In this document: positions 1-40,246 of the stretch, piece after piece
How the letters are laid out: every line of letters begins with the position of its first letter
How positions within the stretch are numbered: position 1 is the first letter of the stretch
Source: a virus
Reading direction: 5' to 3' (one strand)
DNA: 64,000 nucleotides
Virus record (IMG/VR): IMGVR_UViG_3300042324_001793
Span: 34,653 to 98,652 of that record
Position numbers and translations under genes: made by a program
The notes under the pieces: generated by a model
The model's database searches: none
Told to the model about the DNA's origin: nothing
The model's input: the letters and a program-made list of their open reading frames with translations, nothing else

Positions 1-3000
1 CTTGATCCATTTGAACCAGATGTTCCAGACGTTCCAGAAGAACCGTTTGAACCGGATGTACCTGAACTTCCAGCTGAACCTGATGTTCCAGAAGAACCGT
101 TAGAACCGGAAGTACCTGATGTTCCACTTGAGCCGTTTGCACCAGAAGTACCTGATGTACCGCTTGATCCATTTGAACCTGAAGTACCTGATGTACCACT
201 AGTACCTCGTGTCCCAGACGAACCTGAGCTACCATTTGAACCGGATGTACCTGAAGAACCTGAAGTTCCGGATACTCCGTCTATACCAGAAGTTCCGCTT
301 GAACCGGAAGTACCTGAAGTACCAGAAGTACCTCTTGTTCCAGAAGAACCAGAAGAACCATTTGAACCGGAAGTACCAGATGTACCTGAACTTCCATTAG
401 AACCTGACGTACCTGAAGTACCTGAGCTACCATTAGAACCCGAAGTTCCACTTGATCCATTTGAACCAGAAGTACCAGATGTTCCAGAAGAACCGTTAGA
501 GCCGGATGTTCCGGAAGTTCCGCTTGATCCATTTGAACCAGATGTACCTGAAGTTCCACTTGAGCCGTTAGAACCAGATGTTCCTGAAGTACCAGAAGTA
601 CCTCTTGTTCCAGAAGAACCTGAACTACCGTTTGAACCTGAAGTACCAGAGCTTCCATTCGAACCAGAAGTACCTGAAGAACCACTTGTACCACTTGAGC
701 CGTTTGAACCTGACGTTCCAGAAGAACCATTTGAACCTGAAGTTCCCGAAGTTCCCGAAGAACCATTTGAACCTGAAGTTCCAGAAGAACCATTTGAACC
801 TGATGTACCTGATGTGCCTGAAGAACCGGCTGTTCCAGAAGTACCGCTTGTACCGCTTGTACCTCTTGTTCCAGAAGAACCTGAGCTACCATTTGAACCT
901 GACGTACCGGAACTACCATTTGAACCGGAAGTACCTGACGAACCTGAAGTTCCTGATACTCCATCTATACCAGATGTTCCACTTGATCCGTTTGAACCTG
1001 ACGTTCCAGATGTACCAGATGTTCCTGAAGTACCTCTTGTTCCAGAAGAACCGGAGCTACCGTTTGAGCCTGACGTACCTGAACTTCCATTTGAACCTGA
1101 AGTTCCGCTTGTTCCAGAAGAACCATTTGAACCAGATGTTCCTGAAGTTCCAGAAGAACCATTTGAACCGGAAGTACCAGAGGTTCCACTTGATCCATTT
1201 GAACCGGAAGTACCAGAGGTTCCACTTGATCCATTTGAACCAGATGTACCTGATGTACCGCTTGTGCCTCTTGTTCCAGAAGAACCGGAGCTACCGTTTG
1301 AGCCTGAAGTACCTGAACTTCCATTTGAACCTGAAGTTCCGCTTGTACCTGAGCTACCATTAGAACCGCTTGTACCTGATGTACCAGATGTACCAGAAGT
1401 ACCTCGTGTTCCAGAAGAACCGCTTGATCCGTTAGAGCCTGATGTTCCAGAAGAACCTGATGTTCCAGATACTCCATCTATACCAGAAGTTCCAGAAGAT
1501 CCATTAGAACCTGAAGTTCCAGAAGTACCGCTTGTTCCTCTTGTTCCAGAAGAACCACTTGAGCCGTTTGAACCTGAAGTACCACTTGAACCATTTGAAC
1601 CTGAAGTCCCGCTTGAGCCGCTTGAACCGTTTGAACCTGATGTTCCAGATGTTCCACTTGATCCATTTGAACCTGATGTACCAGAGCTTCCATTAGAACC
1701 AGAAGTACCTGACGTACCTGAGCTACCGTTTGAACCTGAAGTACCTGACGTACCTGAGCTACCGTTTGAACCAGACGTACCTGAGCTACCGTTTGAGCCG
1801 CTTGATCCTGAAGTACCAGAAGTACCTGATGCTCCAGATGCGCCGCTTGTTCCAGATGAACCGTTTGAACCGGAAGTACCAGCTGTACCGCTTGTTCCAG
1901 AAGTTCCAGAGCTACCATTTGAACCTGATGTTCCTGAAGTGCCGGAAGAACCATTAGAACCTGAGGTTCCAGAAGAACCGTTTGAACCTGAAGTTCCACT
2001 AGTTCCAGAAGAACCATTTGAACCGGAAGTACCAGCTGTACCTGAAGTACCACTAGTTCCTCTTGTTCCAGAAGAACCACTTGAGCCGTTAGAACCACTT
2101 GAACCGGAAGTACCTGAGCTTCCATTTGAACCGGAAGTACCAGCAGAACCTGAAGTTCCTGATACTCCATCTATACCTGATGTTCCACTTGAACCTGACG
2201 TACCTGAGGTACCGCTTGTACCTGAAGTACCTCGTGTTCCAGAAGAACCTGAGCTACCATTTGAACCACTTGTTCCAGAAGAACCGTTTGAACCTGATGT
2301 TCCACTTGAGCCGGAAGTACCTGAAGAACCTGAAGTACCAGCTGTTCCGGAAGAACCGTTAGAACCAGATGTTCCGGAAGAACCATTTGAACCGGAAGTA
2401 CCGGATGTTCCACTTGATCCGTTTGAACCTGAAGTACCACTTGATCCGTTTGAACCTGATGTTCCGCTTGTTCCTGAGCTACCGTTAGAACCAGAAGTCC
2501 CGCTTGTTCCTGAAGAACCGTTAGAACCAGAAGTCCCAGAAGATCCATTTGAACCGGACGTCCCGCTTGTTCCTGAAGTCCCGCTTGTACCGGATGTTCC
2601 TCTTGTTCCAGAAGAACCTGAGCTTCCATTTGAACCAGAAGTTCCACTTGAGCCGTTAGAACCTGATGTTCCAGCTGAACCTGAGGTTCCGGATACACCG
2701 TCTATACCTGAAGTACCTGAAGAACCGGACGTTCCAGCTGTACCACTTGTTCCGGATGTACCTGAAGTACCTCTTGTTCCAGAAGAACCTGAGCTACCGT
2801 TAGAACCAGAAGTTCCCGAAGAACCGTTTGAACCAGAAGTACCTGATGTACCTGAGCTACCATTTGAACCAGACGTGCCAGATGAACCGTTTGAACCTGA
2901 AGTTCCAGAAGTACCTGAACTTCCATTAGAACCTGAAGTTCCACTAGTTCCAGAAGAACCATTAGAACCTGAAGTTCCACTAGTTCCAGAAGAACCATTA

Positions 3001-5262
3001 GAACCAGAAGTACCTGAAGTACCGCTTGTACCTGAAGTACCTCTTGTTCCAGAAGAACCGCTTGAGCCGTTTGAACCACTAGTTCCAGAAGAACCGTTTG
3101 AACCTGAAGAACCTGATGTACCAGAGCTACCATTTGATCCTGAAGTTCCGCTTGTTCCAGAAGTACCAGAGCTACCATTTGAACCTGAAGTACCAGCTGA
3201 ACCTGATGTTCCAGAAACACCGTCTATACCTGACGTTCCAGAGCTACCATTTGAGCCTGATGTACCTGATGTTCCAGAAGTACCTCTTGTTCCAGAAGAA
3301 CCAGAAGAACCATTTGAACCAGAAGTTCCACTTGAGCCGGAAGTTCCTGAAGAACCTGAAGTTCCAGCGGTTCCAGAAGAACCGGAAGTACCGCTTGAGC
3401 CATTAGACCCAGAAGTTCCGCTTGTTCCAGAAGAACCTGAGCTTCCATTAGAACCAGATGTACCGGATGTACCAGTTGAACCTGATGTACCAGATGTTCC
3501 AGCAGTACCGCTTGAACCATTAGATCCAGAAGTTCCAGAAGAACCTGAAGTTCCAGACGAACCGTTTGATCCTGAAGTACCTGAAGTACCCGAGCTACCG
3601 TTTGAACCGGAAGTTCCTGATGTTCCAGAGCTTCCATTAGAACCAGAAGTTCCAGAAGATCCATTAGAACCAGATGTACCAGAAGTACCTGAAGAACCTG
3701 AAGAACCGGAAGTTCCGCTTGAACCGGATGTTCCTGACGTACCTGAACTTCCATTTGAACCAGAAGTCCCAGATGTTCCTGAAGAACCATTAGAACCCGA
3801 TGTTCCTGAAGTACCTCTTGTTCCAGAAGAACCAGAAGAACCATTTGAACCAGAAGTTCCAGAAGTACCAGCAGAACCTGACGTTCCTGATACTCCATCT
3901 ATACCTGATGTTCCGCTTGAACCTGAAGTACCTGAAGTACCTCTTGTTCCAGAAGAACCTGAAGAGCCATTTGAACCAGAAGTTCCAGAAGAACCGTTTG
4001 ATCCTGAAGTACCTGAAGTACCTGAACTTCCATTTGAACCTGAAGTCCCAGATGTTCCGGAAGAACCGTTTGACCCGGAAGTTCCAGAAGTACCTGAGCT
4101 TCCATTTGAACCGGAAGTACCTGATGTTCCTGAAGTACCCGATGTTCCTGAGCTACCATTTGAACCTGATGTACCTGAAGTACCAGAGCTTCCGTTTGAA
4201 CCAGAAGTTCCAGATGTTCCAGAAGAACCATTTGAACCGGACGTACCGCTTGTTCCAGAAGAACCATTTGAACCTGATGTTCCGGATGTTCCAGAAGTAC
4301 CTCTTGTTCCAGAAGAACCAGACGAACCGTTTGAACCAGAAGTTCCGGAGCTTCCATTTGATCCTGAAGTACCAGCTGAACCTGACGTTCCTGATACTCC
4401 ATCTATACCGGAAGTTCCCGAGCTACCACTTGTACCTGAAGTACCGCTTGTTCCAGAAGTACCTCGTGTTCCAGAAGAACCTGAACTTCCATTTGAACCG
4501 GAAGTTCCTGATGTGCCAGAGCTTCCATTAGAACCAGAAGTTCCAGAAGAACCGCTTGTACCACTTGATCCGTTTGACCCTGAAGTTCCAGATGTTCCAG
4601 AAGAACCGTTTGAACCTGATGTACCTGAAGTTCCAGAAGATCCATTAGAACCAGATGTACCAGAAGATCCATTAGAACCTGAGGTTCCAGAAGAACCTGA
4701 AGTACCGGATGTACCATTTGAACCATCTACTCCGCTTATACCTGAAGTACCAGAAGTACCTCGTGTTCCAGAAGAACCTGAGCTACCATTTGAACCACTT
4801 GTTCCAGAAGAACCGTTTGAACCTGAAGTTCCACTTGATCCGTTTGAACCTGAAGTTCCAGAAGAACCATTAGAGCCTGAAGTACCAGCAGAACCTGAAG
4901 TTCCAGATACTCCATCTATACCGGAAGTACCAGAAGAACCGGCTGTTCCGGAACTTCCATTTGATCCTGAAGTACCGCTTGAGCCGTTTGAACCAGAAGT
5001 ACCTGACGTTCCTGAGCTGCCGTTTGAACCTGAAGTTCCAGCTGTTCCAGAAGAACCATTAGAACCGCTTGTCCCAGAAGTACCTGAGCTACCATTAGAA
5101 CCAGATGTTCCACTTGAGCCGTTTGAACCAGAAGTACCGGCGGTTCCTGAGGTTCCAGACGTACCTGAAGTTCCTGAGGTTCCGCTTGTACCAGTCGATC
5201 CTGACGTTCCGGATGTTCCGCTTGTACCAGCAGTGCCTGATGAACCTGATGTTCCAGAAGAA
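1..5262 (-). repeat. Gly-X-Y collagen-like tract 2 (C-terminal side)
   Basis: More than 580 consecutive Gly-X-Y triplets continue past the left edge. X and Y are almost only Ser, Thr and Asn. Arg-containing GTRG triplets occur about 19 times here (for example near 187, 321, 601, 865, 1033, 2230, 3283, 4463 and 4757) and I did not see them in the other tract. GIDGV markers lie at 271, 955, 1468, 2161, 2692, 3214, 3889, 4393 and 4906, with a variant at 4725. The mirror reading on the plus strand gives a long PEVPEEP-type open frame, which is an artefact of the repeat. Confidence 0.9.
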
Positions 5263-8200
5263 CTTGAAATTTGGCCAGTTGAGGTTAACACAAAAGAGTA
5301 ATTTTGAGTTCCCTCAGTGTACCAAGTCACATCATGATTTCCACTAGACTGATCGACTACGTATATTTTAACAATCATTCTATCCGTTGGATTAATAGTT
5401 GTTGTTGGTAGCACTACATCAACGTTAGCTTCAACTGGAATCGTTGAACTAATCCAACCTATAAGAACTTGATTAGTTGGTATTACTGTTCCATAACTAA
5501 CACCTGCACTATTTGCTAATTCAATAGTAACAAATGTGTCTGTATTAAATCCTGCGCCGTCTTTTAAGAAATGTAAATGGAATCTTTGTGTTCCTCCTGG
5601 TATTACAGAAAATCCTAATTCAGGAGTTATAAATTGTTGTACTAATACTGGAGTAGTACCTGTTGTAGTTTTAAGTATTGATTGTTGAGCAGCGCCGGTC
5701 GGATTAATATTTAGGTCTCTATACGTACCTATTCCAGAAGCAACTGACTGATTAAAATAATAAATTTGACCTGCCGATATTCCAGTAGCTCCACTAGTTC
5801 CTGAAGAACCAGATGTTCCACTTGAACCGGAAGTTCCAGAAGTTCCGCTTGTTCCAGAAGTTCCTGACGAACCTGAAGTTCCAGAAGTTCCGCTTGTACC
5901 CGCCGTGCCGGATGAACCTGATGTTCCCGAAGTTCCACTTGAACCAGAAGTTCCAGTAGTTCCAGAAGAACCTGATGTTCCAGCCGTTCCGCTTGATCCA
6001 TTTGAACCAGATGTTCCTGACGAACCAGAAGTACCTGAGCTACCGTCTGAACCTGAAGTTCCAGAAGAACCATTTGTTCCTGAGACTCCGTCTATTCCAG
6101 AAGTACCTGAAGAACCATCTGATCCTGACGTTCCAGAAGAACCATTTGAACCTGATGTACCAGATGTTCCTGACGAACCATTAGAACCACTTGTTCCAGA
6201 AGTACCTGAGCTACCATTTGAACCGGAAGTCCCTGATGTTCCAGAAGAACCGTTAGAACCTGATGTTCCTGACGAACCAGAAGTACCTGAGCTACCGTCT
6301 GAACCCGATGTTCCAGAAGAACCGTTTGAACCTGAAGTACCAGATGAACCGTTAGAACCTGATGTTCCTGACGAACCAGAAGTACCTGAGCTACCGGCTG
6401 AACCTGACGTACCAGAAGAACCATTTGTTCCTGAGACTCCGTCTATTCCACTAGTACCTGAAGAACCATCTGAGCCTGAAGTTCCAGAAGAACCATTTGA
6501 ACCTGATGTACCAGAGGTACCATTTGAACCTGAAGTTCCAGAAGAACCATTTGAACCAGAAGTACCTGATGTTCCAGAAGAACCGTTTGAACCTGAAGTA
6601 CCTGAAGTACCAGTTGAACCAGAAGTACCGGATGTTCCTGAAGAACCGTCTGAACCTGAAGTTCCTGAAGAACCGTTTGAACCTGATGTTCCAGAGCTAC
6701 CATTTGAACCTGAAGTACCTGAAGTACCTGAGCTACCATCTGAGCCGGAAGTTCCGCTTGAGCCGTTTGTTCCTGAGACTCCATCTATTCCAGAAGTTCC
6801 AGAAGAACCGTCTGAACCTGATGTACCGCTTGAGCCGTTAGAGCCTGAAGTACCAGATGTACCAGATGTTCCCGAAGAACCGTTAGAACCTGAAGTACCT
6901 GAAGTTCCAGAAGAACCTGAAGTACCAGAGCTACCGTTTGAGCCTGAAGTACCTGAGCTACCGTCTGAGCCACTAGTACCAGAAGAACCATTTGAACCAG
7001 ATGTTCCTGAAGTACCAGAGCTACCATTTGAACCGGAGGTACCTGATGTTCCAGAAGAACCTGAAGTACCTGAGCTACCATCTGAACCTGATGTTCCCGA
7101 AGAACCATTTGTTCCAGAAACTCCGTCTATTCCAGAAGTTCCAGAAGAACCGTCTGAACCGCTAGTACCGCTTGAGCCGTTTGAACCCGAAGTTCCAGAA
7201 GAACCGTTTGAACCTGAAGTTCCGCTTGTGCCGGAAGTTCCAGCTGAACCACTTGTTCCACTTGATCCGCTAGTACCCGAGCTACCATTTGAGCCACTAG
7301 TACCTGAGCTACCATTTGAACCTGAAGTACCCGAAGTACCAGATGAACCAGAAGTACCGCTTGAGCCGTTTGAACCTGAAGTTCCTGAAGTACCTGAAGA
7401 ACCGTTAGAACCAGAAGTACCTGAGCTACCGTCTGAACCTGACGTACCTGCTGAACCTGAAGTTCCTGATACACCATCTATTCCAGAAGTACCTGAAGAA
7501 CCATCTGAACCTGAAGTTCCAGAAGAACCGTTTGAACCTGATGTACCGGATGTTCCAGAAGAACCGTTTGATCCTGAAGTTCCAGAAGAACCATCTGAAC
7601 CTGACGTACCAGATGAACCATTTGTTCCTGAGACTCCATCTATTCCTGATGTACCTGAGCTACCGTCTGATCCTGAAGTACCTGAGGTACCATTTGAACC
7701 TGAAGTACCTGAGGTACCATTTGAACCGTTTGAACCTGAAGTTCCGTTTGAACCCGAAGTTCCAGAAGAACCATCTGAACCGGACGTACCGGCAGAACCT
7801 GAAGTTCCTGATACTCCGTCTATTCCAGAAGTACCTGAGCTACCGTCTGATCCTGAAGTACCTGAGCTACCGTTTGATCCTGAAGTTCCAGAGCTACCAT
7901 TTGAACCTGAAGTACCTGAGGTACCATTTGAACCTGAAGTACCGCTTGAGCCATCTGACCCTGAAGTTCCAGCCGAACCTGATGTTCCTGAGACTCCGTC
8001 TATTCCTGATGTTCCGGAAGATCCATTTGAACCAGAAGTTCCAGAAGAACCGTTTGAACCGGAAGTTCCAGAAGAACCATTTGAACCGGAAGTACCTGAG
8101 CTACCGTCTGAACCTGACGTACCTGCTGAACCTGAAGTTCCGGAAACTCCGTCTATTCCTGATGTTCCCGAAGAACCGTCTGACCCTGAAGTTCCAGAGC

Positions 8201-9590
8201 TACCATTTGAGCCTGATGTACCGCTTGAGCCGTTAGAACCTGAAGTTCCAGAAGAACCGTTTGAGCCTGATGTTCCAGAGCTACCGTCTGAACCGCTTGT
8301 TCCAGAAGAACCGCTTGTTCCTGAGACTCCATCTATTCCTGAAGTACCTGAACTACCGTCTGAACCAGAAGTACCTGAAGTACCGGCTGACCCTGAAGTA
8401 CCTGATGTTCCCGAAGAACCTGAAGTACCTGAGCTACCGTCTGAACCTGAAGTTCCAGCTGAACCTGAAGTTCCGGAAACTCCATCTATTCCTGAAGTAC
8501 CTGAGCTACCGTCTGAACCAGAAGTACCTGAAGAACCTGATGTACCAGTTGAACCAGAAGTACCTGATGTACCTGATGTACCTGAGCTACCGTCTGAACC
8601 TGAAGTTCCAGAAGAACCGTTTGTTCCAGAGACTCCATCTATTCCTGAAGTACCTGAGCTACCGTCTGAACCAGAAGTACCTGAAGAACCTGATGTACCA
8701 GTTGAACCAGAAGTACCTGATGTACCTGAGCTGCCGTCTGAACCTGAAGTTCCAGAAGAACCGTTTGTTCCAGAGACTCCATCTATTCCTGAAGTACCAG
8801 AGCTGCCATCTGCACCAGAAGTCCCAGCTGAACCAGACGTTCCACTTGAACCGTTTGAGCCGGATGTACCAGAAGTACCGGTTGAACCGGACGTACCTGA
8901 AGTACCTGACGTACCAGATGAACCGGCAGTACCGGAAGTTCCACTTGTTCCTGAAGTACCGGATGAACTAGTAAGTCCATCTTCTAATGTTGTACCAATA
9001 TAGTAAAAACCTTTAATATATGGATCAACTGATCCATAAGTAGAAGTTAAATAAGTAACCATTGAATCTGATAATAGTAGAATACCATTATCGTAATTAA
9101 AAACCCAACTTACTTCAGTGCCTGCATTATCAGTAGTTAAGATTTGGGTTCCGCCTGATGCAGGATTACCATTCCAAAATTCAGCGGTCCATCCAATTGA
9201 AGGAGCACCGCTTGCTTGCAATATCTTTTGAGGTTGAATCCAGTCTAGGATTTGTGTGTTAAAATCGTTAAGCGTCGAACAGGCTACCCATGTAGTATTA
9301 TTACCTGAAATAACTTGACTTAATTCTACGGCATTTCCTGTAGAATATGCGTCTGCTACAATCGTTTCCAACGGTTGACCTGATGCTAATAGAGCAACAG
9401 CCGCTGATTTATTTGCAACTGGGTTTTGTTTAACAACATCGAACTGAGTTAAAACTCGAGCAGCTGATATATTAGGGTTAAACGCAAACTTTGCTTCGTA
9501 CCAATTAAAATTAGAGGCAGAATCAATTACGTTTGCGGCTTGGACCTTAAATACGAGTTTTAATCTTTCATTATCTGTATAGCCTGCCAT
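1..9590 (-). CDS. Giant collagen-like virion fibre protein (partial, C terminus beyond left edge)
   Basis: Reading from the ATG at 9588-9590, the minus-strand frame stays open to the window edge, giving at least 3196 codons; I translated the non-repetitive parts codon by codon and found no stop. Residues 1 to about 209 form a non-repetitive head beginning [18 protein letters not shown]. Residues about 210-1270 are uninterrupted Gly-X-Y triplets (mostly GTS, GSS, GSN, with GID-GVS). A globular segment of about 170 residues follows, then a second Gly-X-Y tract runs off the edge. Proline is practically absent from the tracts, unlike animal collagen, so the helix would rely on Thr/Ser, perhaps glycosylated. 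It is the last gene of the run 11697-9598-9590 and starts 7 nt after the preceding stop. A trimeric tail or surface fibre is the likely role; the exact one is unknown. Confidence 0.9.
5263..5784 (-). other. Globular domain embedded between the two collagen-like tracts
   Basis: Residues about 1270-1442 of the giant fibre protein leave the Gly-X-Y pattern and read as a mixed hydrophobic/polar sequence with many alternating beta-like stretches ([43 protein letters not shown]). It looks like a beta-sandwich knob in the fibre shaft. I do not recognise the family. Confidence 0.75.
5785..8965 (-). repeat. Gly-X-Y collagen-like tract 1 (N-terminal side)
   Basis: About 353 Gly-X-Y triplets. GIDGV markers recur at 6082, 6433, 6775, 7117, 7468, 7630, 7810, 7990, 8143, 8323, 8476, 8629 and 8773. 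Spacings are 144-180 nt close to the head and 342-351 nt further in, all multiples of 9, so the triplet register is never broken. Confidence 0.9.
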
Positions 9591-9813: not shown

Positions 9814-11697
9814 TTAGTTGAATGTTACAGTCACTGTATCGATTCTAATAGCTGAATTGTGGATTTTAAATTCTACGTATATTCCGTTTGTTGCATTAAA
9901 TCCTCCAAATGTTCCATTTATTGTATTTCCACTGGATGAACCTAATCGGATTTGACCATCAGTTGCACCATCATCAAATGTTCCAAAATTATAACCTGAA
10001 CCGTTTAGGATTAATGGATACGAAGTAGGTCCAAAAACTCCAACGGTTGCTCCTATTTTACGAACAGTTACAGTAAGAGCACCGCTAATTAAATCAGCTA
10101 GAGCAGATCCGCCTGCGAAAGTTCCAGCGAATACCATTGAAAAACTAGGAATTGGAACGCTTGACGAACTTAGTGTAGTATAAAATTTTCTATAGTACGA
10201 TGCAGCTGCAGTAAGTGAAGAATAGTTTGGGTTTGAACCATTTAAGTCTGATTTAAAAGCAGCTAGATCGGGTTGAATTGTTGCAGTATTTGGTGCAGTT
10301 AAGAAATATTGATCAGGTCTAACGATTGTACCACCGACAACGCAAGCATTTCCGTTTGATAGACTTGCGGTAGAAACCCATGCAGTCGTGTAATCGCTTT
10401 GTAATCTAAAAGCCTCATCGTCAAATCGCTCTACGTATTGAGTGCTATTTCCACTAGTTGGATATGTGTCCACTAATATTGAATGAGTTGAAGAAGATTT
10501 AGTTCCGCCTGAAGACCATGGATCAAATAGTGAAGCAGTCGCGGCTGCAGTTGCTCCTCGATACCTAAAATTTGAAGAATTAATCGCCCAATTTAAAATA
10601 TCATATTCAGCAGCTGTATTGTTGAAGAAATTGGTCCATCCAGTAAAAGTACCAGAAGTTGGTGACCATGCATATTCAGCAATAGTTGGAACTCCGTACG
10701 ATGGTGCAACAAATTGAAAATTAGTATTTGCGCCAAGAGCACGGCCTTGAGTATTTGCGTTTAGGTTATTAATTGCATCAACGTGTGCACTAAACTGTGA
10801 AGTTAGAGTGTAGTACTCAACACCGCTTAGATGCTTGGTTACAATATTTCCTAGAGTTTCTTCGATTGTACAAGTTGAACCGGCTCCAAAGCTTGGAGTA
10901 GATGCATTTGTATCAAAGAAAACTGCAGATTGTGTATAAGTGAAAGTTTGAGCACCATCACTAGTTGAATCAGTTAGGTTTGTAATAACTATATTGTATT
11001 TACCGCCGTCTATTAAACCTACGCCAGATAGTACTTGATCAATATCAACGGTTACGGTAATGTCAGCTTTTTGTTTTAAACTATCAGTTGCAAAACCGGC
11101 AATAATAATGTCAATACCGTCTGTACTTGAATATGTCCCGTCTGCAGTAACTCCCTGAGAAAATGTTGAAATAATAGTGGTGCCATCTGCATCATATACA
11201 TCAACGGTTACCGTAGCGTCTCCGCCTTGACCAGTTACCGCATTTGCTGTACTGAATGAGACTGTGCTACTAGTTGTCGTTGACTGATTTGTACCTGCCC
11301 AAGTTCCAGCCTTAAATGGAGTTCCTTCAGTCGTTGGATTGCTTATTCTAACCGTTGATCTAGCTAAAGTTTCTGATACTAATCCAGACGAGGTTCCGTC
11401 GTTTGTGCCAAAGTGACTTGCGAATGTTGGAGTAGGAACGTAAACATTTATTGTACTTGAATCTCCAGGTTTCTGAGCTCCAAGTATATCAATTCCAACA
11501 AAATTAACTTTTGAATAATTTCCGACAAGAACGCCTTCATCATAAAAATCAATTCCGCTAATTCCACTTGAGCCGGTATTTGGAGAATCATTCCAATATA
11601 AATTACCCGAATTATCTATTGCTAAAAATTTAGTCTTGGTGTTATCCTGGGATACTCCGCTAAGATCAACTTGTTTTATTTTAAGTTTGTGGGACAT
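9814..11697 (-). CDS. Putative tail fibre / virion surface protein
   Basis: A 627-residue protein rich in Ser, Thr, Gly and Asn, with alternating beta-strand-like sequence throughout and no transmembrane segment. The N terminus (MSHKLKIKQVDLSGVSQDN) has the short strand-turn character of other fibre N termini in this module, followed near residue 45 by a brief Gly/Ser stretch (TGSSGISGIDF) resembling the triplets of the neighbouring giant fibre. The rest looks like phage adhesin or fibre beta structure. It leads a three-gene run ending in the collagen-like gene and has a late-type ATAAATAA motif at 11728-11736 just upstream. I do not recognise a specific family, so function is inferred from composition and position. 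Confidence 0.65.
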   Translation of the reverse strand: MSHKLKIKQVDLSGVSQDNTKTKFLAIDNSGNLYWNDSPNTGSSGISGIDFYDEGVLVGNYSKVNFVGIDILGAQKPGDSSTINVYVPTPTFASHFGTNDGTSSGLVSETLARSTVRISNPTTEGTPFKAGTWAGTNQSTTTSSTVSFSTANAVTGQGGDATVTVDVYDADGTTIISTFSQGVTADGTYSSTDGIDIIIAGFATDSLKQKADITVTVDIDQVLSGVGLIDGGKYNIVITNLTDSTSDGAQTFTYTQSAVFFDTNASTPSFGAGSTCTIEETLGNIVTKHLSGVEYYTLTSQFSAHVDAINNLNANTQGRALGANTNFQFVAPSYGVPTIAEYAWSPTSGTFTGWTNFFNNTAAEYDILNWAINSSNFRYRGATAAATASLFDPWSSGGTKSSSTHSILVDTYPTSGNSTQYVERFDDEAFRLQSDYTTAWVSTASLSNGNACVVGGTIVRPDQYFLTAPNTATIQPDLAAFKSDLNGSNPNYSSLTAAASYYRKFYTTLSSSSVPIPSFSMVFAGTFAGGSALADLISGALTVTVRKIGATVGVFGPTSYPLILNGSGYNFGTFDDGATDGQIRLGSSSGNTINGTFGGFNATNGIYVEFKIHNSAIRIDTVTVTFN

Positions 11698-15226: not shown

Positions 15227-16579
15227 TTATTTTATTGGATTTTTACTGCCTTTTGCTGTACCTGAAAGAACTTCTGTTTTACTATCAACTTCTGCATCTA
15301 GTGCAATAATACCTGATCTAACGATACACTCATTTAGATTAGCATAGATGACACTTTCTGGAGAACTTTTGATATAACTAAGGTCTATTCGATTAACGCT
15401 ACCTTTTTCAAACATACACTCGTCTAGGTGACAGTATCGGATATCGTTTCCGGTTAGGATTCGACATTCGGTTATATGTGATGATCTTACTTTGCAGCCA
15501 TAAAGCATACAGTCTGTAATCTCTGCCTCAATTGAGCAATTTATCAAGTCAAGCCCTTTAATTCCAAATCCTTCCTTTAACGAAGAATCTTTTAATTGAA
15601 CTCTCTCCGTATCAGTATCATAGTTAATAGAACCTTTAGTCATTTGGCCAAAAGTAATTAAGTCAAATAGGCTATCTCTAACCTTTAGGTAATTTGCTTC
15701 AAGAATACGAGGGTCATCTTTTAAGTCAACGTAAAGATCGATATTTGGAAAATTCTTAGTGAAATTTTCGTATGACTTTAGAGCAAGAGTGTTATCTCTT
15801 TGTTTTTTCAAAACATCGTGAACTTTTTTCTGTTCATCAATTGAGTATTGGTAATTAGATTGAAGCGTGTTGTACAGAGACTCGGCTATGTAGTTAACTA
15901 AGTTAGTTGCACTAGATCTCTTATTTTGATAGTCGGCTCCACCTGCGTATCTAACTTCAACGTAACCGTCTTTTAACTTATCGAAATTAATTCCAAAGTA
16001 TTTAGATTGAGGGTAATTAAATTCAAGTGGACTGCTGGGTTTTGAATAGGCGATTGACGTCTCAGCTAGGAACTTATTTTTAGGGTAAATATTTGTTACT
16101 GGATTCTTGTAAATCTTTTGAATTCTAGATTTAGCAGAAGGCCACATGTCAAAGATTTTCTCCTCATTTAGTCCAAGAATGTACTTAAAAACATTTAGAT
16201 TCTGAAGACGCTCTCTTAAACCAAGATCAAATTCATTTAGTGACATATTAATATGCAGTCCAGTACGTTCGGTCGTGAATCCATTTTCATCGATAAAATT
16301 CATAACTTTATACATAACGTGAATTGCTTCATTATATGGCATTACTCCAGTAATAAGCTCATTCATTTTAAATCCGCCTGAAAAATCTGGCTCTAATTTG
16401 AATTCTGAGTAACTTACGGCAATATCTGAATTGTATTCGTTTGTGCTGATTACTTTTTTGCCAAGTAATACTTCCAATTTTTCAGCAAGCTCAGCCCTAC
16501 CGATTGGAGAAAAGAATTCAAATTCGAATCCAATATTTACGTTGTCAAAAAGACGTTGTTGATTTAGATCTTTATACAT
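15227..16579 (-). CDS. Amidoligase-like enzyme (glutamine synthetase fold) with C-terminal pentapeptide-like helix
   Basis: A 450-residue protein. The N-terminal half has the signature order of the amidoligase/COOH-NH2 ligase family: GFEFEF (E19, E21, metal-binding ExE type), an EPDFSGGFKMNE stretch (63-74), RTGLHINMS (H109, N111) and YVEVRYAGG (E208, R210). Such enzymes join carboxyl and amino groups using ATP. Residues about 335-435 are short Cys/Leu/Ile-containing repeats (LINCSIEAEITDCML, then ITECRIL and YCHLDECMF), resembling a pentapeptide or quadrilateral beta-helix. It starts 5 nt after the stop of the upstream virion gene, so it is made late with structural proteins. Its substrate could be a virion protein or the host envelope. 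The assignment is from motifs read by eye. Confidence 0.6.
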   Translation of the reverse strand: MYKDLNQQRLFDNVNIGFEFEFFSPIGRAELAEKLEVLLGKKVISTNEYNSDIAVSYSEFKLEPDFSGGFKMNELITGVMPYNEAIHVMYKVMNFIDENGFTTERTGLHINMSLNEFDLGLRERLQNLNVFKYILGLNEEKIFDMWPSAKSRIQKIYKNPVTNIYPKNKFLAETSIAYSKPSSPLEFNYPQSKYFGINFDKLKDGYVEVRYAGGADYQNKRSSATNLVNYIAESLYNTLQSNYQYSIDEQKKVHDVLKKQRDNTLALKSYENFTKNFPNIDLYVDLKDDPRILEANYLKVRDSLFDLITFGQMTKGSINYDTDTERVQLKDSSLKEGFGIKGLDLINCSIEAEITDCMLYGCKVRSSHITECRILTGNDIRYCHLDECMFEKGSVNRIDLSYIKSSPESVIYANLNECIVRSGIIALDAEVDSKTEVLSGTAKGSKNPIK

Positions 16580-19528: not shown

Positions 19529-21879
19529 GCGGTCGCGTCATACGATCCAGAGATTCGAATAGTTACGTTACCTCCATATTCTCCGTTTGAGGTGTTTAGC
19601 GGAGCGCGAGCAGCTCGGTTAAATAGCGAAAATTGGCTTAGTCGATTAGTAACAGTTGAGCCTTCATTTGCTGGAAAAGCGTGTTGTGACTGCAGATAAA
19701 TCCATCCTCTCGCGGCATCACCATTAGAAATAAGGCTTCCTAAATAATTAGAGTATGTTTGTATATACGAGATTCCAGTATAGTCAGGCTGAGGATCCGG
19801 TAAAGTAGTTATATCAGTAACGGTCACTTGTGCATTTAGATGACCGTGTGCACTTGCTGAAAATGGTAATGAAAGCCCTAACCCAGTGTATGTATAGTAG
19901 CCTGAACCTGATGTCATGTCGTCAGCTGGCCAAGAGTTGAGGTCTAGTGTATAAATTGAATTAAAATGAACGCGTCTACCTATTTTAGTGTATGTGAATG
20001 ACTGAGACAGCTGAAAGCCTGAAAATGAGTTAGCCGTCGCGTATGAATGATAATTGGTTGGAAGTATGAGTTTACCACCACTAAGAGTTTCATATCGTCC
20101 TAAGAATAGAGCATTAGTAACGGTACCCTCCTCGTAATCATCTAGCGTATTTGCATCCGCTGATGGAATTTGTGTAGCTGGAAAAGGGATTCCTTGATTA
20201 AGACGATCACCTTTGATCTTAATTGCATTATTAAGACGTAGCTCTTTAGTGGCGTCTACTGTTAATATTGCTAAGTCTGTAACCGGCGCCGCAATCGTAA
20301 ATGAGTTGCCGCTAGTAGGAACGCCAGTTATTCCAGTACCTCCGTATGTAGTAACTGCGCCGGTTGAGCTAATGACTTGAATGGGGTTTCTAAACTCAAA
20401 TACTGAACTGGTACTCCCTATTTTAAAGGTAATATTATTGTTGGCTGAGTTAAAACCTGCTCCCCAATAGGCAGCAGCTGATCCGCCACCAAAACTTGCG
20501 TTTCTCTTAAAAAATAATCCATCGATTGAAATTGTACTGGCTGACTCAGTGTCCGTTAAGATTCGATAGTTCGTAAACTTCATTTCAATTGAACGACCGT
20601 CAGCTTGAAGAGCCTCAGCTCGGTTAATTTTCCAAATTTGCTCACTACTTCTTCTTGGAGCAAATGACTCAGGCGAAGCAGTTATTCCGCTCGAAGATAA
20701 GTCGTATTCCGCTCTTAGAAAATAGGTTCCAGGATTAGCTTCATTACCAAAAGAAGTTCCGTACGATAATCGATATTTACGCATTCGTAGATTTTCAAAA
20801 CTTGGACTAATTACGTAAGATTCGCCAGCTGAGCCTGAAGTATATGAAGTGGAAAGGGCATCAATTGATCCTAATTCTAATTGATGTCGGTATCCTTTAC
20901 TTGTTGTTGCAAATTCCTTAGCCTCAGTTGCGGTTCCATTAAAATAAGAGTATAATGATAGGTTTGAAGTAGCTGGAAACATCTTCTCAGTAGAAGAAGG
21001 GTACGTTATTAATTTATGCGGAGAGGTTCCTGAACCAGTAGAAGTTAAATTTATTGGATTTGTGTTAGTAACATCAGCGGCAGTTTCACATAATTGAATA
21101 ACTGTATCGCTAATCTTAAGAACAAAATATCCATTGAAATTAGAAAGTCCGCCTATTGCAGTTCCACCTTCCGCTGAGTATGTAACAAATTGGCCATCCA
21201 CTAATCCGTGATTTGACGTAAATGTAATTTCTTCAGTTGACGTATTAACCGCGGTTGCTGGAGCAAAGGTCTTAGCGGTTGACGAGTTTGCACTAATTAC
21301 GATATTTGATCCATCGAATATTACAGATTTAGAGTTTAACTCATTAAAGTTATAAAGAACAGTTTGATAGTTAACTCCTGCTCCAGGAGTTGCATAACTT
21401 GGATCAGTTGATGTTGCACTATTTGTTAAATCAGACCCAGACGATACTCTAGCTTTCAGTATTCTAGAGGTAGGAGTTAATCTTACAAATGGCGAAATAT
21501 TTGAACTTAGGGCAGTTTGTACAAGAGTATTAAAATTCGCTAATTCTAACCAACCGTTTCCACCGGATACTTTCTTTAATATAGTGTCGGCTGTTATTAA
21601 AATATCGCCCAAAACCATAGCAGACGGATAGGATCCGCCAGTCGGTGCAGTTACTGGTGCAATCGCAGCAGATAACCCATAAGTTACTGAGCCCTGCGGT
21701 CCAGTAAGTCCAATTGGCCCAATTGGACCGGCTGCTCCAGTTAAACCAGCAGGTCCAGTAGGACCAGTTTGGCCAATCCCTAATGCGATTAGCTGGTTAA
21801 AGTTGAAATTTAATTTACTAGATAAGTCAGATTGACTATCAAGTGCGGATACTTCCCTTAGATTTATAATGACTGCCAT
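19525..21879 (-). CDS. Tail fibre-like protein with a short collagen stretch
   Basis: A 784-residue protein. The N terminus (MAVIINLREVSALDS, then NFNFNQLIALG) is fibre-like and leads directly into nine classical Gly-X-Y triplets at residues 36-63 (GQTGPTGPAG, then GLTGAAGPIGPIG), here Pro-rich and therefore unlike the giant Ser/Thr fibre. The remaining 700 residues are Ser/Thr/Asn-rich beta sequence. Its ATG overlaps the stop of the upstream 2277-residue gene (TAATG at 21877-21881), so translation is probably coupled. A trimeric receptor-binding or accessory fibre is the most likely role. Confidence 0.7.
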   Translation of the reverse strand: MAVIINLREVSALDSQSDLSSKLNFNFNQLIALGIGQTGPTGPAGLTGAAGPIGPIGLTGPQGSVTYGLSAAIAPVTAPTGGSYPSAMVLGDILITADTILKKVSGGNGWLELANFNTLVQTALSSNISPFVRLTPTSRILKARVSSGSDLTNSATSTDPSYATPGAGVNYQTVLYNFNELNSKSVIFDGSNIVISANSSTAKTFAPATAVNTSTEEITFTSNHGLVDGQFVTYSAEGGTAIGGLSNFNGYFVLKISDTVIQLCETAADVTNTNPINLTSTGSGTSPHKLITYPSSTEKMFPATSNLSLYSYFNGTATEAKEFATTSKGYRHQLELGSIDALSTSYTSGSAGESYVISPSFENLRMRKYRLSYGTSFGNEANPGTYFLRAEYDLSSSGITASPESFAPRRSSEQIWKINRAEALQADGRSIEMKFTNYRILTDTESASTISIDGLFFKRNASFGGGSAAAYWGAGFNSANNNITFKIGSTSSVFEFRNPIQVISSTGAVTTYGGTGITGVPTSGNSFTIAAPVTDLAILTVDATKELRLNNAIKIKGDRLNQGIPFPATQIPSADANTLDDYEEGTVTNALFLGRYETLSGGKLILPTNYHSYATANSFSGFQLSQSFTYTKIGRRVHFNSIYTLDLNSWPADDMTSGSGYYTYTGLGLSLPFSASAHGHLNAQVTVTDITTLPDPQPDYTGISYIQTYSNYLGSLISNGDAARGWIYLQSQHAFPANEGSTVTNRLSQFSLFNRAARAPLNTSNGEYGGNVTIRISGSYDATA
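21691..21774 (-). repeat. Short Pro-containing collagen-like stretch (nine Gly-X-Y triplets)
   Basis: Encodes GQT-GPT-GPA-GLT-GAA-GPI-GPI-GLT-GPQ at residues 36-62 of the 784-residue fibre protein. Pro in X or Y distinguishes it from the collagen-like tracts of the giant gene. Confidence 0.9.
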
Positions 21880-24800
21880 TAAATGAACTTAATTTTTATT
21901 TTTGGAACTAATTTAACTCCAGTATTCGGTTTTATCAAAATCGATCCTTCAATTACATTAGATTTGGTATTATTTATTCGGACTGATCGAATTAAGTCGT
22001 AACCTAAGTCTCCGAGTAAATCATACTCAACCGATTCGAATGAAACTAAGTTATTATTGATCGTTCTATCATCTAATTCATAAAATTCAAATGCTTCTAC
22101 TTGATATAATTTTGTTAAGTTAGTTGAGCAATATTGAGATAAGTATTCTTCAAATGTAAGCTGATCTAGGAATACTGGGTCTGTTGTAATTTGAGAACCG
22201 TTTGAATATTTAAAGAACTTTAAAAATTGGTCACGAAGTCCGTTATTTGATAAGTGCTTAGTTATTAAATCTGGTATATTTAATTTGAATTTAATCTCAG
22301 TTGCAAATTGAGAATACACAATATTTGCTTGAGTAGCGGACGATGCTAAAAAGTCAGTATTGTTTAATTCAATTGAAGTAAAGTCTTCCATTATGAATTG
22401 CATAGGAACATTTAATAACTTGGAAATAAATGAATAATCTTCAGTAACTCGACGTGTTCCTGGAACCTTTACGTAATCTGTTTTATTAGAGTATTCGAAA
22501 TGATATCCGTAATCCCAACTCGAAGATAACATATTAAAGTCAGTTCGACTAATCGGAGTCTCTCCGATATATGGATAAACGGATGAGTATTTTTGACTGT
22601 TTTCAAGATCAAGAATTGAAGATTTTGAGTATTTCACAAATTCATAGTCCTTTATAATAAAGAAATTATCGACGTATGGATTTAGGCAAACATTTGCTCC
22701 ATGTAAAATATTATCATTTATTGAAAATTCATATTTGAATCCAGCTACAGGTTTTGTCAATACTTCATATTCGGAAGAATATCGGTTGACAGAATACTCT
22801 TGAGATGGGACTTCTGAATAAGCGAATCCAGCCACTCCATTAATTTGACCTGAGTTAACTTCAACTTGGTCAAGTTTTACAATTGTCGATTTATTAATTT
22901 GGTCAGCTTGTACAATTTCAATCGCCATTGTTTTGTATGGAGTTAATATTCCATCAGTATACGACTCCCAACTAATAACGCCTTGACTCTTTTCAGTTAA
23001 GTTTAAAAATTTAGCGAATGATAAATTTTCAAATACTTTTTCAAAATATTTTACTCCACCGAATATTTGGAATTGATTAATGTCTTCTATCCAATATGAA
23101 GTTGTGTTATTTGGCACTGGGTTTGCTGAATATACGTATTGTACTAAATCGCCAAGCCCAGTTGGGAGTGGAATGATTGTGTATGGTTGTCCGCTGATAT
23201 TGGTGATATTAACGACATCTTGTAGAGCACCATCTACTCCATCAATCGTTAAGGCTGAATTGCCTAGTGCTGCGGTCGTTACGGATACACCGGCTGCAAG
23301 TTTAAGAAGCACGCTTTTTTCACCCGCTTTAATTATATAAAGAGGTGCAAAATCATTACTAATTCGATTTATTTCAGAATCAGCTAATGCGTCATAACTT
23401 TCTAAGCCTGGAAGTAATGATGTGCGTATTGACTCGATAACTAGAGTTGATGGATTTAAGTTAAGGCCGCTCGCGGATAAATTAACTCCCCTAGACAGTT
23501 TAATGGTGGAATATGCAGTAGCTTTAGTGTTATACTTTTTATCCTTTGCATAGTAAAGGAATGAGTGAGTTAAATTAGAAACGCTGTTTGAGTTAAAGGA
23601 TATTCGATAGTCTCCAAAAAGAGAATCCATGTAAGATACTTTATGATACACTGAGAAAGTGCTGTTTTGAGTTGGCACTGACCAGTCGGCTCTAAATAAT
23701 ATAGGTTCGTCATACGACGCTGATCCTAACGATCCGCTTATGTACGTTACGTCAAAATCGTATACTCCATTACTTGATGAAAGTGTGGATGGATCTACCT
23801 CGTACACAGCTTCATTGTATACGATACTTGAAATATCGCTATAAATTAAACTAAATCGAGTATTAGTTGATAATAATTCGTCAAGTATTTCTGTTTGGTT
23901 AATACCACCACCATCATTAAACTGGAAATATCCAGTTACAGATTGAGCTGGAGTAGCTGAGGTGCTTGATAATGCAAAATGAGTAACCGTTGCCCCGATT
24001 GGATCATCGTCTGCAATAATCGTACCTACTATTCCGGAAACTTGGTTTACCCATGCATCTTCGAATACTCCCTGGATTCTAACGCCTGAGTATACTCCAC
24101 TTGTTAATATAATTGGCGTAGACTGATCGACTTTTGCATAAATTCGAGTTCCTAATTTATCACCAGTAGAAATTAGTGAATTACTAACAGCCTCGTATAC
24201 TGGAGACCCTAATGTTGCTAATATCGTTGACTTATTTCCATATACGACTTGTATTGTGTCGCCTGGACTTGCTGAGATGGCAGAACTTCCGGAAATTAGG
24301 TTATTGTACTCAAGCAATGACGCTGCTGTAATTTCTTGGTCAATTTGGTAATTTACCGGAGAAGACATAACTGAACCGGTGAATAGATTAGCTTGCGTTA
24401 CTTGGTCGTTTGTACCAGCTGACCAATTACTAGATAAAATAGTTTCAGGTAATAGCTCTTTATGTCCCAATACTAATTCAATAACCACAGTAATCGATTT
24501 TGAATTAGTGTTCTCAATTACTCGATATTTAACAGGTTGTCTATTAATAGTAGGATCTTCCTTAACCGGTTTTAATATTACGCTAAACTTATAATCTTCA
24601 AATCGTAGAGTATCTGAAACAGCTGAGCCGTTTTGAGCTAACTCATAAAATCTAAACATTGCCCCTTTAAAAAGAGTCTCATACTGTTTATTAAACTGAT
24701 TTTTATTAAGAATCGAATATCTATACTGAGGTCTAGCTATTTGAATTGAATTAATAACCGGCACATACGTAAAATATTGCTCAAAGTAATTAGAATCAGA

Positions 24801-27800
24801 AATTAGTGAGTTTATATTTAAGTTTTCATTAAAATACGAATAATTATTTCTAATTGATTTAATATCATCTGAGTATCCAAAGTCCGACTCTATATAAAAC
24901 CACTCATGTGTCATTTTCTCAGGGGTAGGAGAAGTCTCTCTATGAGATGGCCCAAAATTGTCTTTTCCAAATAACAAGTCTGAGTTTAGTCGGTATGGAT
25001 TATCTCGACTATCACTAGAGTCTGCAATTCCCCATTTAGCAATGTATGGAATTACCCGACCATCTGTTGCAAAATCAGAAATGAAATTTTCCAAGTTTGC
25101 ATGATACTCACTAGATAAACTGCCAGACAAAAACTTTTCACGATACGGATATGTAGCTAAACTCGTAGAGGCTGACGTATGATCCGCTTTTAAGCTGAAT
25201 GGGCCTATATAGTCAAATGCGTCCTCGGTCTCGTCAAAGTAAGGAATATCGAGACGATTACTAAAGGCTGAATCTCCTGGGTCAAGCGTAGTTAGCGGCA
25301 ATTTATTTCCATATATTAGGATAACGTCGCCGTCTATATTTTCAAAGTATGAAATTAAATCAGTATTTTGCCATATTAAATTACGTTCGCCACTTGCTGC
25401 AATATCAGTAGAATCGTAGATTGTTCCGTTTATTGAAATTGCACCGGTACCTATTGCTTTATACGTATACTTAGTAAAGTCAAGGACCTTTGCTCCAGCT
25501 GGAATGTAAAAATCTTTATATAAGTCAATTAGTAAATTTCTAGAATAGTCACTAGAATAAGTTGAGAAATTAAAATCCATTGTCTCAAATATGGAAAGAA
25601 CTCCTACGGTTGGTCTAAATAATTTACGAATTTCAATTTTTCCGTATTTGACATTAACTGTCTCGTCGTCAGTTAACTGAATGGTTGCCTTTGTGTTAAA
25701 ATTAGAAATTGCTGATAGCTTAGCATCACTAGATAACCCATTAGTAATTAAGTCAGAGGCGTTGCATAATCGACTAATGCTTGACCAGTTTTGATCAGTT
25801 TTAATTACTAGAGTATCTAGTAATTGAGTTAACTTGGAAATATTTCCAATATCAATTATTGCATGGGATTTATTTAAAAATCCACCATCTGCGTAAACAA
25901 TATCAGTAGTTACTGAATTATTTAATTTGACAAAATTGTAACTACTTGAAACTGGAAGAACTTTAACTTTTAATTCACCGTATGCATCTCCGAATCGATT
26001 TGTTTGTAGAAACGATGTAGTGTTTAAAGTTACTCCACTAATTGATGTATTATTTAGAATATCTGAGATATCGGATATTGATTGTGCGATTTGATCGAGA
26101 TCACGGTCGCCATTAACGTAGATAGTTGATATCCCTGCTGAATAGGCTAAAGTATACGGTGTAGTAATAGGTAAATAATTTCGAGTAAATACAAGCTCAT
26201 CGTATTTTCCATTTAGGTCTAGTGAATCAATAACTGATCCACTTGGGTGGTAGATTCGAATTTTATCTAAGTGGTTTGGCTTTGAAATAATTTCAATTGA
26301 TATAGTTGATTTAGAGTCTTTCGTTGAAATCTCTGCAATCTCTTGAGTAACTAATTCTTTTGGGCCAAATGTTAAACCTAAATCAAATGAAGTATTGTCT
26401 ATTTTAAAGTCAACAATACTACCAGATTGATTCCAATCTTCTGAATTTATTAAGTGAATATCTCCGTCTTTTGTTTTTAAGTATGGAAAGAATAATGTGT
26501 CTTTTGATGTACGGTTATTAGTTAGATCAGATAAGTCTTGCGTAAGATTCATACCTCTTAGTTTAACCCCAGTTGGATTAGTTAATAAAAATGATATGTC
26601 ATCTGTTTGTTTATAGTTGATTGGTATCAACTGATCATTATCGATTCCAACATTTGCTAAATTAAGCAGTCCTCCAGTTGTAACTTCCTGAAATTTAGTA
26701 AATCCTCCAGCTACATAAATATGAGATTCATCATGAACCACTATATCAGTAACGGATTGAGGACTAAGGCCGGTTGAAGTATTAAATGAAAAATCAAGTT
26801 CTCCATTTTTAAATATTCTAGCAATTCCTCTAGCTGGAACTCCTTTATATGACGTGAATGCTCCACCTATGTAAAAATTTCCATTTAAGTCTAGTGATAT
26901 TTTAGAAATGGTGCCATTTGCTCCAGTTTGATAATTAAATGCTAGATCGATTGCACCAGCCTCAGTTAATTTAATTAATCGATTAACTGTATTTGAATTA
27001 TAACTGGTGAATCCACCGGCTACATAAACTTCGCCTACTTCGTCTAACACAATATCATTTACAGTAGAGACATTATTGAAACCAGTTCCATATACAAAAG
27101 TTGAATCGATAGTGGCGGTGTTCGTTAACTGAACAATGCCGTTTGCGGTGGTTCCTTTGTAGCTAGTAAAATCCCCAATTACAATAACTTTATTCGAGGA
27201 ATTTACTATTAGTTTCTTAACTAGTCCGGCGCCTCCACTAAATCCAGTAGAGCCGACATCAAACGACGAGTCAGCGACTCCGTCTAAATTAATTTTAACT
27301 AGTCCAACTGATGGTAATACATCTCCACTATTTGTGTATTCGGTAAAAGTACCTCCAACGTAAATGTCCTGTGATGGAGTTATGTGGATTGTACGTACAG
27401 TTGAGTCAAATGAAAAATCAGTCGATTCGATTGAACCGTCTGTATTTAATTTTATAAAATTGCTAATTGGTGTTCCATTATACGATAGCATTTCTCCACC
27501 AACGTATACTTTTCCAAATTTATCAAGTTCAATTGATTCAACTTTAGCTGGGGAAAAACCACTTCCGTAATGAAATGAAAAGTCAATTTCGCCAGTTGAG
27601 TTAAGACGGATTATTCCATTTGCTGGATATCCATTATAACTAGTGAATGTTCCACCAATATACATTTTATCGGTAGCTGGATCAACTGTTATTGTTTTAA
27701 CTGTGCCTCCACCTATTTCTGAACTAGCAAGAGCAGTTGATATGTCTATTGAATCTGATGCTGTGATTTTTGAATTAAACATTGCAGTTAAGTCAATATC

Positions 27801-28712: not shown

Positions 28713-28727
28713 TATTTAATTTTTATT

Positions 28728-32327: not shown

Positions 32328-32332
32328 TTAGT

Positions 32333-34513: not shown

Positions 34514-34525
34514 AGTAGTTAGTTA

Positions 34526-35584: not shown

Positions 35585-35606
35585 TGTTTAAGAATTTTTT
35601 GTCTTT

Positions 35607-35618
35607 TTTATTTATTAA
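35607..35618 (-). promoter_or_regulatory. Candidate late promoter core (TTAATAAATAAA)
   Basis: Minus-strand TTAATAAATAAA lies about 23 nt before the ATG at 35584, in the 51-nt gap between two virion genes. Confidence 0.55.
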
Positions 35619-35635
35619 GCAAACCCAAGGGAACC

Positions 35636-38905: not shown

Positions 38906-38927
38906 ACGCTAATGCTAGCTCTTTACC

Positions 38928-38939
38928 TTTATTTATTAA
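38928..38939 (-). promoter_or_regulatory. Candidate late promoter core (TTAATAAATAAAGG)
   Basis: Minus-strand TTAATAAATAAAGG lies about 23 nt before the ATG at 38905, at the head of the baseplate/fibre run. Confidence 0.6.
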
Positions 38940-38954
38940 GCCAGACAACTGGAA

Positions 38955-39374: not shown

Positions 39375-39378
39375 TTGG

Positions 39379-40044: not shown

Positions 40045-40067
40045 GAGTCATTCTAAGTGATTTGAAG

Positions 40068-40127
40068 TATTCTACTGAATAAAAAGATTAAGTTTTTTGA
40101 AACCTTTGTAAAATGTACTGTAGAATA
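40068..40127. repeat. 8-bp inverted repeat in the divergent intergenic region
   Basis: TATTCTAC at 40068-40075 and GTAGAATA at 40120-40127 are exact reverse complements separated by 44 nt, next to the TTG start of the resolvase. It could be an operator or a hairpin in the leader. Confidence 0.45.
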
Positions 40128-40149
40128 AGGGTGTTGGGAGGGTATAGAG

Positions 40150-40240: not shown

Positions 40241-40246
40241 TCCTGA

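Follow-up and report, generated by a model that had tools for sequence, protein, structure and literature searches.

We studied a 64,000-nucleotide stretch of DNA (the window; positions 34,653 to 98,652 of IMG/VR virus record IMGVR_UViG_3300042324_001793) and in it a fibre gene whose product consists largely of long Gly-X-Y shafts. The six-residue motif GIDGVS, called a node here, recurs along these shafts, and the pattern of spaced nodes in this gene is real: as the original prediction had stated, the distances lie near one, two, three and four times 171 nt. The 171-nt ruler is private to this phage, whereas the nodes and their gradient from base to tip are general. We favour, with about even confidence, the reading that a large tailed phage here encodes a collagen-type fibre of extreme length, the shaft of which bears graded nodes whose near-integer distances come from copying together with a loose selected spacing.

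Nodes of the fibre gene

The fibre gene (record 33041-44242, minus strand) is a single intron-less phage gene for 3,733 amino acids. Its product begins with an N-terminal domain, followed by shaft 1, a globular insert and shaft 2; beyond these come another globular segment, two short stretches of collagen-like sequence and the C-terminal domain. The long plus-strand reading frames across the same stretch are the mirror of the Gly-X-Y repeat. The parts in the window are as follows (window positions).

1..9590, minus strand: fibre gene, residues 1-3196 of 3733; the remainder is at record 33041-34652, outside the window
8961..9590, minus strand: N-terminal attachment domain, residues 1-210, phrog_33494 / phrog_9417, no assigned function
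5775..8960, minus strand: shaft 1, residues 211-1272, 354 unbroken Gly-X-Y triplets, 13 GIDGVS nodes
6081..8789, minus strand: GIDGVS nodes 1-13 in shaft 1, first bases 8789, 8645, 8492, 8339, 8159, 8006, 7826, 7646, 7484, 7133, 6791, 6449, 6098
5256..5774, minus strand: globular insert, residues 1273-1445, beta-strand-rich model
3..5255, minus strand: shaft 2, residues 1446-3362 (1446-3196 in the window), 639 unbroken triplets, 10 GIDGVS nodes, 22 GTR triplets
4725..4742, minus strand: type B node GISGVD, residues 1617-1622, 20 triplets past one GIDGVS and 37 ahead of the next
270..4922, minus strand: GIDGVS nodes 14-22 in shaft 2, first bases 4922, 4409, 3905, 3230, 2708, 2177, 1484, 971, 287

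GIDGVS occurs 23 times in the gene; 22 copies are in the window on the minus strand (first bases 8789 down to 287), and the 23rd is at residue 3273, beyond it. Counted in triplets of 9 nt, the spacings are 16, 17, 17, 20, 17, 20, 20, 18, 39, 38, 38 and 39 in shaft 1 and 57, 56, 75, 58, 59, 77, 57, 76 and 57 in shaft 2. They form four classes of 16-20 (eight spacings), 38-39 (four), 56-59 (six) and 75-77 (three) triplets, or 144-180, 342-351, 504-531 and 675-693 nt, with no intermediate values. Most of the spacings quoted in the original prediction (144, 351, 504-531 and 675-693 nt) stand, but 181 and 332 nt were slips, since spacings in register must be multiples of 9. That they are such multiples is correct and also trivial, because the Gly-X-Y frame is unbroken, and the motif at 4725 is not the exception it was taken for: it is GISGVD, an instance of a second node type with the permuted form G[IL]SGV[DN] (type B). 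If it is counted as a node, the series 1, 2, 3, 4, 3, 3, 4, 3, 4 read after the insert holds. A GIAGID at the very end of shaft 2, 27 triplets past the last GIDGVS, is off the series.

The proposed enrichment of 171-nt multiples over shuffled triplets was borne out. The quantogram had its maximum of 5.91 at 19.0 triplets (P = 0.0002 against shuffled triplets and the same against a smooth head-to-tail gradient, 0 of 5000 simulations reaching the observed maximum). A test on the class means is fairer than one on single spacings, because adjacent units are copies of one another; the four means (18.1, 38.5, 57.3 and 76.0) are best fitted by a unit of 18.85 triplets with a largest deviation of 0.8 triplet (P = 0.004, corrected for descent). 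With the mean single spacing as the unit, P was 0.012. The self-comparison that had also been suggested gave no sharp 171-nt period; after a lag of 3, the best residue-identity lags in shaft 1 were 20, 249, 189 and 17 triplets.

The nodes stand out from a monotonous background, in which Ser or Thr is X in nearly all triplets and both rods are almost entirely Ser, Thr and Asn. An aliphatic residue takes the X position in 51 of the 1014 triplets, and 50 of these 51 are within adjacent pairs. Such pairs number 25, against 2.8 expected and a maximum of 9 over 2000 shuffles, and they are the 23 GIDGVS, the GISGVD and the GIAGID. Charge differs between the shafts, with 40 Asp and no Arg or Lys in shaft 1 and 12 Asp and 22 Arg in shaft 2. 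In shaft 1, 23 of the 26 SD triplets are exactly 3 before or 5 after a node and the other three are in mid-double; in shaft 2, nine GTR triplets lie 5-10 triplets before a node and twelve lie 8-23 triplets after one.

Nodes and gradient in related phages

Relatives were sought in six scans of viral contigs and one of genome contigs, the latter giving three weak loci. At least 290 Ser/Thr-type Gly-X-Y reading frames were found, at least 143 after removal of near copies, and at least 9 of these non-redundant frames have at least six nodes of the two types; most such shafts among the matches listed are therefore without nodes. Long arrays are present in six of the nine, namely this gene, L018/L019/L156 (counted once), L016, L042, L109 and L072, and L070, L040 and L119 have nodes but no clear array. 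Five shaft lineages besides this one thus have the same kind of node; their linkers differ, and they include two further head types. A 91-residue shaft query against the phage collection gave no match, perhaps owing to a low-complexity filter.

The spacings in the relatives, in triplets, are 18, 19, 31, 50, 39, 52, 53; 124, 194 in L016; 21, 21, 20, 42, 20, 21, 21, 20, 22, 56, 21, 38, 21, 54, 37; 32, 34, 49, 38 in L042; 19, 18, 19, 41, 20; 20, 20, 33, 22, 35, 20, 35, 34, 22; 35, 66, 32 in L109; and 15, 16, 17, 15, 18, 15, 18, 31, 19, 32, 34, 34, 34, 53, 70; 112 in L072. In L018 and L019, GISG[IV]NG serves as the node, with spacings of 19, 18, 21, then mostly 33-38, then 50-58, and single ones of 92, 108 and 32. 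Beside the head the spacing is 15-21 triplets and it lengthens distally, with single steps averaging 17-21 and longer steps often non-integral. The correlation of spacing with position (rho) was 0.92 for this gene, 0.98 for L016, 0.72 for L018, 0.70 for L019, 0.57 for L042, 0.64 for L109 and 0.94 for L072, with the caveat that a shaft's own copies are interdependent and that L018 is closely related to L019. Type B nodes fall mid-gap between type A nodes in 8 of 11 cases (P = 0.0006); the only one in this gene is at one third.

Spacings of related phages that do not cluster at multiples of about 19 triplets had been named as the observation that would count against the original prediction, and this is what L016 (P = 0.47) and L109 (P = 0.87) gave in the class-level test. 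A rigid 171-nt ruler for the whole family is ruled out by these two. L018 came closest to multiples (P = 0.03), followed by L019 and L072 (both 0.12), and the value for L042 (0.000) was discarded, since the minimum-separation rule of the null produces it artefactually. With the mean single spacing as the unit, P was 0.0035 for L072, 0.02 for L018, 0.09 for L019, 0.57 for L016, 0.65 for L042 and 0.56 for L109. The per-spacing quantogram gave P below 0.025 in all seven shafts and is indecisive, as it ignores the copying of units.

L042 and L109 share a head domain different from that of this fibre, and L072 has a third. Genes of about 450, about 810-1130 and about 318 residues precede the shaft in 7 of 10 loci; two loci show only the 317/318-residue gene and one locus lies downstream. 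Judged by gene size, not by alignment, this points to one phage lineage with swapped heads. The globular insert is also a movable beta-rich module: it is 53% identical to the inserts of L017 and L072 and 32% to that of L016, and the shafts of L017 and L072 differ from this one. The distal shaft of L072 (residues 2088-2899 of its open frame) turns to proline-rich triplets (PT, PL, IT, LT) past the Ser/Thr part.

Descent of the shaft

Growth by unit duplication, as originally proposed, is supported, and nodes and linkers are related by descent. DNA similarity between units of one class was higher in node-aligned than in off-phase comparison (mean z 2.36 for singles, 2.78 for doubles and 1.68 for triples; off-phase segments served as the null, and a triplet-shuffle null also destroys local order). 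The first two units are identical at 46 of 47 compared codons. The node amino acids are constant in all 23 copies and their codons vary, with 13 GAT and 10 GAC for Asp and four codons for Val. The Ile codon is ATA in 23 of 23 nodes, whereas ten other genes of the window use it for 109 of 539 Ile residues; the first Gly is GGA in 13 of 13 nodes of shaft 1 and GGT in 10 of 10 of shaft 2, and the Val codons are also shaft-specific, which points to separate duplication within each shaft. In exact GIDGVS matches of relatives, ATA was used in 10 of 11 in L016 and 16 of 17 in L072, but in 5 of 21 in the phage of L042 and 3 of 20 in that of L109.

A natural loss of one unit was also found. The near-identical phage of L015 is without one double unit and its node (333 nt, 37 triplets), with the junction in 23 nt of identity; a multiple alignment splits the gap into 9 + 324 nt, and exact tiling shows one 333-nt deletion. 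L013 equals this record over 20.6 kb, and L012 has no single nucleotide polymorphism over 20.6 kb and one triplet fewer. Other near-identical loci have 1 (L014), 4 (L037), 17 (L011) and 33 (L020) mismatches; those placed for L037, L011 and L020 are all in the shaft, and that of L014 was not placed. In L020 and L011, apparent tracts of ectopic conversion both include the L015 junction, leave the length exactly unchanged and have 0 or 5 nt of homology at one end; they may be assembly chimeras and were not used.

Linkers also turn over through short copies at arbitrary lags, so the quantised spacing is not simply preserved tandem DNA. A fixed-lag codon test of this gene showed no clear excess (largest z 2.9 over about 250 lags); it misses the duplication seen in node-aligned tests because the units differ by 1-3 triplets. 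That DNA repeats are actively avoided was ruled out by an excess of exact repeats in all 13 shafts tested. An age gradient with the young end at the head was weak (rho -0.39, P 0.08 here; -0.50, P 0.04 in L072; P 0.07-0.62 in the other five) and was set aside.

It is possible, if rather doubtful, that the pattern is purely historical, the spacing classes being frozen unit duplications with linker growth and no function of spacing, and the nodes persisting since the copies are young. Such a history fits the unit homology, the one-unit deletion, the abundance of exact 36-nt repeats (380 repeat words against 2 expected) and a class step that differs among phages, but it sits poorly with node residues that stayed fixed as their codons diverged, with the mid-gap position of type B nodes and with a base-to-tip gradient that recurs across different linkers and heads.

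The later loss of markers that the original prediction had added to duplication is unlikely. If each unit of about 19 triplets once bore a node and the doubles, triples and quadruples lost their inner ones, remnants of node flanks should persist, and the test for such ghosts over the 79 long gaps of the seven shafts did no better than chance (mean quantile 0.48). All four doubles of this gene do score 0.14-0.36, and in three of them the stray SD triplets are at 18, 15 and 16, the place expected for a node flank; the single units, however, resemble the first half of the doubles only.

Structure, neighbourhood and possible role of the fibre

With 354 and 639 triplets, the shafts have the long perfect Gly-X-Y repeat of collagen-like proteins. 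Proline is absent from both, so the imino acids of animal collagen are missing; we take these as not required for phage collagen-like proteins. Triplets of Ser, Thr and Asn are weak triple-helix formers, and one could think instead of a polyglycine-II-like or disordered Ser/Thr polymer. Polyglycine-II bundles need turns, however, and shaft 2 runs for 639 triplets without one break, which makes this alternative improbable. The C-terminal 457 residues, including the end of shaft 2, also score as Pfam Collagen (PF01391, E 1.4e-19; only that part of the shaft was scanned), and the phage-encoded collagen-like protein EPclA has been shown to be trimeric, with flexible stalks (PMC3368898). The structure models were made for single chains only; the insert model (mean pLDDT, the predicted local distance difference test score, of 64) is rich in beta-strand and had no match in the PDB at E <= 0.001, and the head-domain model had a pLDDT of 57.

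The 98,652-base record encodes a tail sheath and a T4-type terminase, and near-identical contigs of about 270 kb exist. The matches listed for the terminase include named phages such as Sphingomonas phage PAU, several Synechococcus phages and Tenacibaculum phage PTm1 (32-34%), with LR records mostly ranking higher. PAU, PTm1 and LR745206 gave no exact match to the shaft or node patterns; in Shewanella phage 1/4, a phage with the head domain, the shaft pattern likewise had no exact match. The N-terminal domain occurs at 25 viral loci, of which several are copies of this phage, and in 9 named-phage records (two phages listed twice); elsewhere it is joined to Ser/Thr, other collagen-like and non-collagen proteins. 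An attachment domain common to the fibres of other phages, a place in a structural gene cluster and a conserved partner gene mark the gene as that of a phage fibre. Neighbouring features are the following.

9814..11697 of the window, minus strand: upstream partner gene, 627 residues, phrog_31482; homologous (29% identity, E 6e-38) to the Shewanella phage 1/4 gene that precedes the corresponding fibre gene
L010:5710-12005 = record 23210-29505, minus strand: fusion of PF00534 glycosyltransferase and FkbM methyltransferase (958 residues), methyltransferase (221 residues) and methyltransferase/GT9 fusion (910 residues), downstream of the fibre genes

A second collagen-like fibre gene lies directly downstream on the same strand (870 residues, L010:12914-15526, record 30414-33026); it is proline-rich and shares a 12-residue motif with shaft 2. 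An amidoligase-like gene (PF12224, 450 residues) with a weak pentapeptide-repeat tail is at window 15227-16579, and a gene of similar size, compared by size only, precedes the shaft in 7 of 10 loci. The window also holds a gene of 2,277 residues with DUF5122 beta-propeller repeats (21879-28712) and phage GroEL and ribonucleotide reductase genes (41044-42627, 48526-51932).

The three PF00534/FkbM, methyltransferase and methyltransferase/GT9 genes are candidates for glycosylation of the fibre, and a Ser/Thr-rich shaft with glycosyltransferase genes alongside is the arrangement expected of a glycosylated collagen filament that works like BclA. Of 7 records searched, 6 have exactly one PF00534 match, which lies on the strand of the shaft and, by manual calculation from the locus positions, about 2 to 19 kb downstream of it; G000 and G001 represent a single phage, and G003 and G004 are closely related. 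The seventh record, G005, had no PF00534 match within its 12 kb of downstream sequence. FkbM matches were in the same six records, but they share a frame with PF00534 only in G000 and G001 and, judging from position and frame length, in G006.

The favoured reading would have three chains forming a triple helix. With the collagen rise of 0.286 nm per residue, 1014 triplets would give about 870 nm (about 0.87 um). The Ser/Thr linkers would be glycosylated by the products of the downstream glycosyltransferase and methyltransferase genes, and a proline-free Ser/Thr rod might benefit most from sugars. The two node triplets would stay bare, so that the nodes may encircle an otherwise polar rod with Ile, Val and Asp. 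Such rings could serve for contact or register, which would be needed above all near the base, where the chains start and fibres lie together; nodes densest by the head in the seven shafts, and confined there in L017, suggest such a need, be it for the start of folding, register or lateral contact. The 1:2:3:4 lengths of this gene would come from copying within length classes and loose selection on spacing, not from a universal 171-nt ruler. The regular hinge considered earlier is unlikely, because GID GVS keeps Gly at every third residue.

Several observations weigh against this reading. No Pfam family was found on the head, insert, second globular part or tip; no search was aimed at models of the PfN, PCoil and PfC domains of EPclA-type phage collagens, and coiled coils were not looked for. 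PF00534 is present in all 14 control genomes, it lies 2 to 19 kb away from the shaft, and among the six records two are near-identical and two others closely related; the link to glycosylation is therefore circumstantial. L017, whose head domain is 83% identical to that of this fibre, bears a pair of GIDG motifs near the head, separated by 17 triplets, followed by node-free runs of 196 and 290 triplets. The seven shafts are one lineage by gene sizes and not independent inventions, exact DNA repeats of at least 36 nt are in the same phase after a node in only 5 of 42 cases, and trimer, glycan and contact roles are what we infer. The spacing residuals in succession, judged by eye, show no alternation of sign as a rigid lattice would require.

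A true axial ruler, in which a fixed repeat of about 16 nm along the trimer serves lateral packing on fibres or the virion and missing nodes are lattice vacancies, is very unlikely. The fit of the four classes to multiples of 18.85 triplets without intermediate spacings would suit it, but the singles here vary by 4 triplets, no phase locking was visible by eye along the shaft, the single steps of relatives average 17-21 and the longer steps of L016 and L109 are non-integral. Fold-back pairing of the two shafts about the insert and a match to tail-sheath rings were dropped as numerology.

Vertebrate fibrillar collagen genes are built of 54-bp exon units, and there too collagen lengths are multiples of an ancestral unit; that unit is an exon, whereas here it is the distance between protein motifs in an intron-less gene. 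The triplets of BclA, the collagen-like protein of the Bacillus anthracis exosporium, are GPT-rich. Among phages, EPclA and EPclB likewise have Gly-X-Y shafts joined to globular N- and C-terminal domains in fibre proteins (PMC3368898); the fibre described here differs in its proline-free long shafts and in globular parts without a Pfam domain, and the accessible text of that source does not mention spaced aliphatic nodes. BclA forms a trimeric filament with a strain-specific number of triplets, a collagen region carrying glycans and a trimer-promoting C-terminal domain (PMC10470788). Its glycosylated, trimeric filament resembles the one proposed here, but BclA is a spore protein and the likeness is one of working, with no homology claimed. 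It seems that phage collagen-like proteins and BclA filaments work similarly to this fibre (PMC3368898, PMC10470788). The Tenacibaculum phages PTm1 and PTm5 are 'hairy', with head-fibre-like appendages (PMC13282480), and the PTm1/PTm5 terminase is among the better named matches listed (32% identity). A literature text search for GTSGTSG found no paper with a phage-related title, and the titles and abstract starts among the matches listed for collagen-like phage proteins describe no spaced nodes.

We tentatively propose that one uncultured giant-phage lineage makes micrometre-long, proline-free, glycosylated collagen fibres whose nodes, graded from base to tip, carry positional information (register, lateral bundling or stiffness) and are shifted by recombination in whole units. 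If true, this would be a natural case in which a near-featureless protein, free of proline, keeps three chains aligned in register, or fibres alongside one another, for almost a micrometre; the glycosyltransferase genes nearby suggest a stabilising chemistry. It would also show how such fibre length evolves, and the graded node pattern would provide a concrete design rule open to testing in short recombinant collagens.

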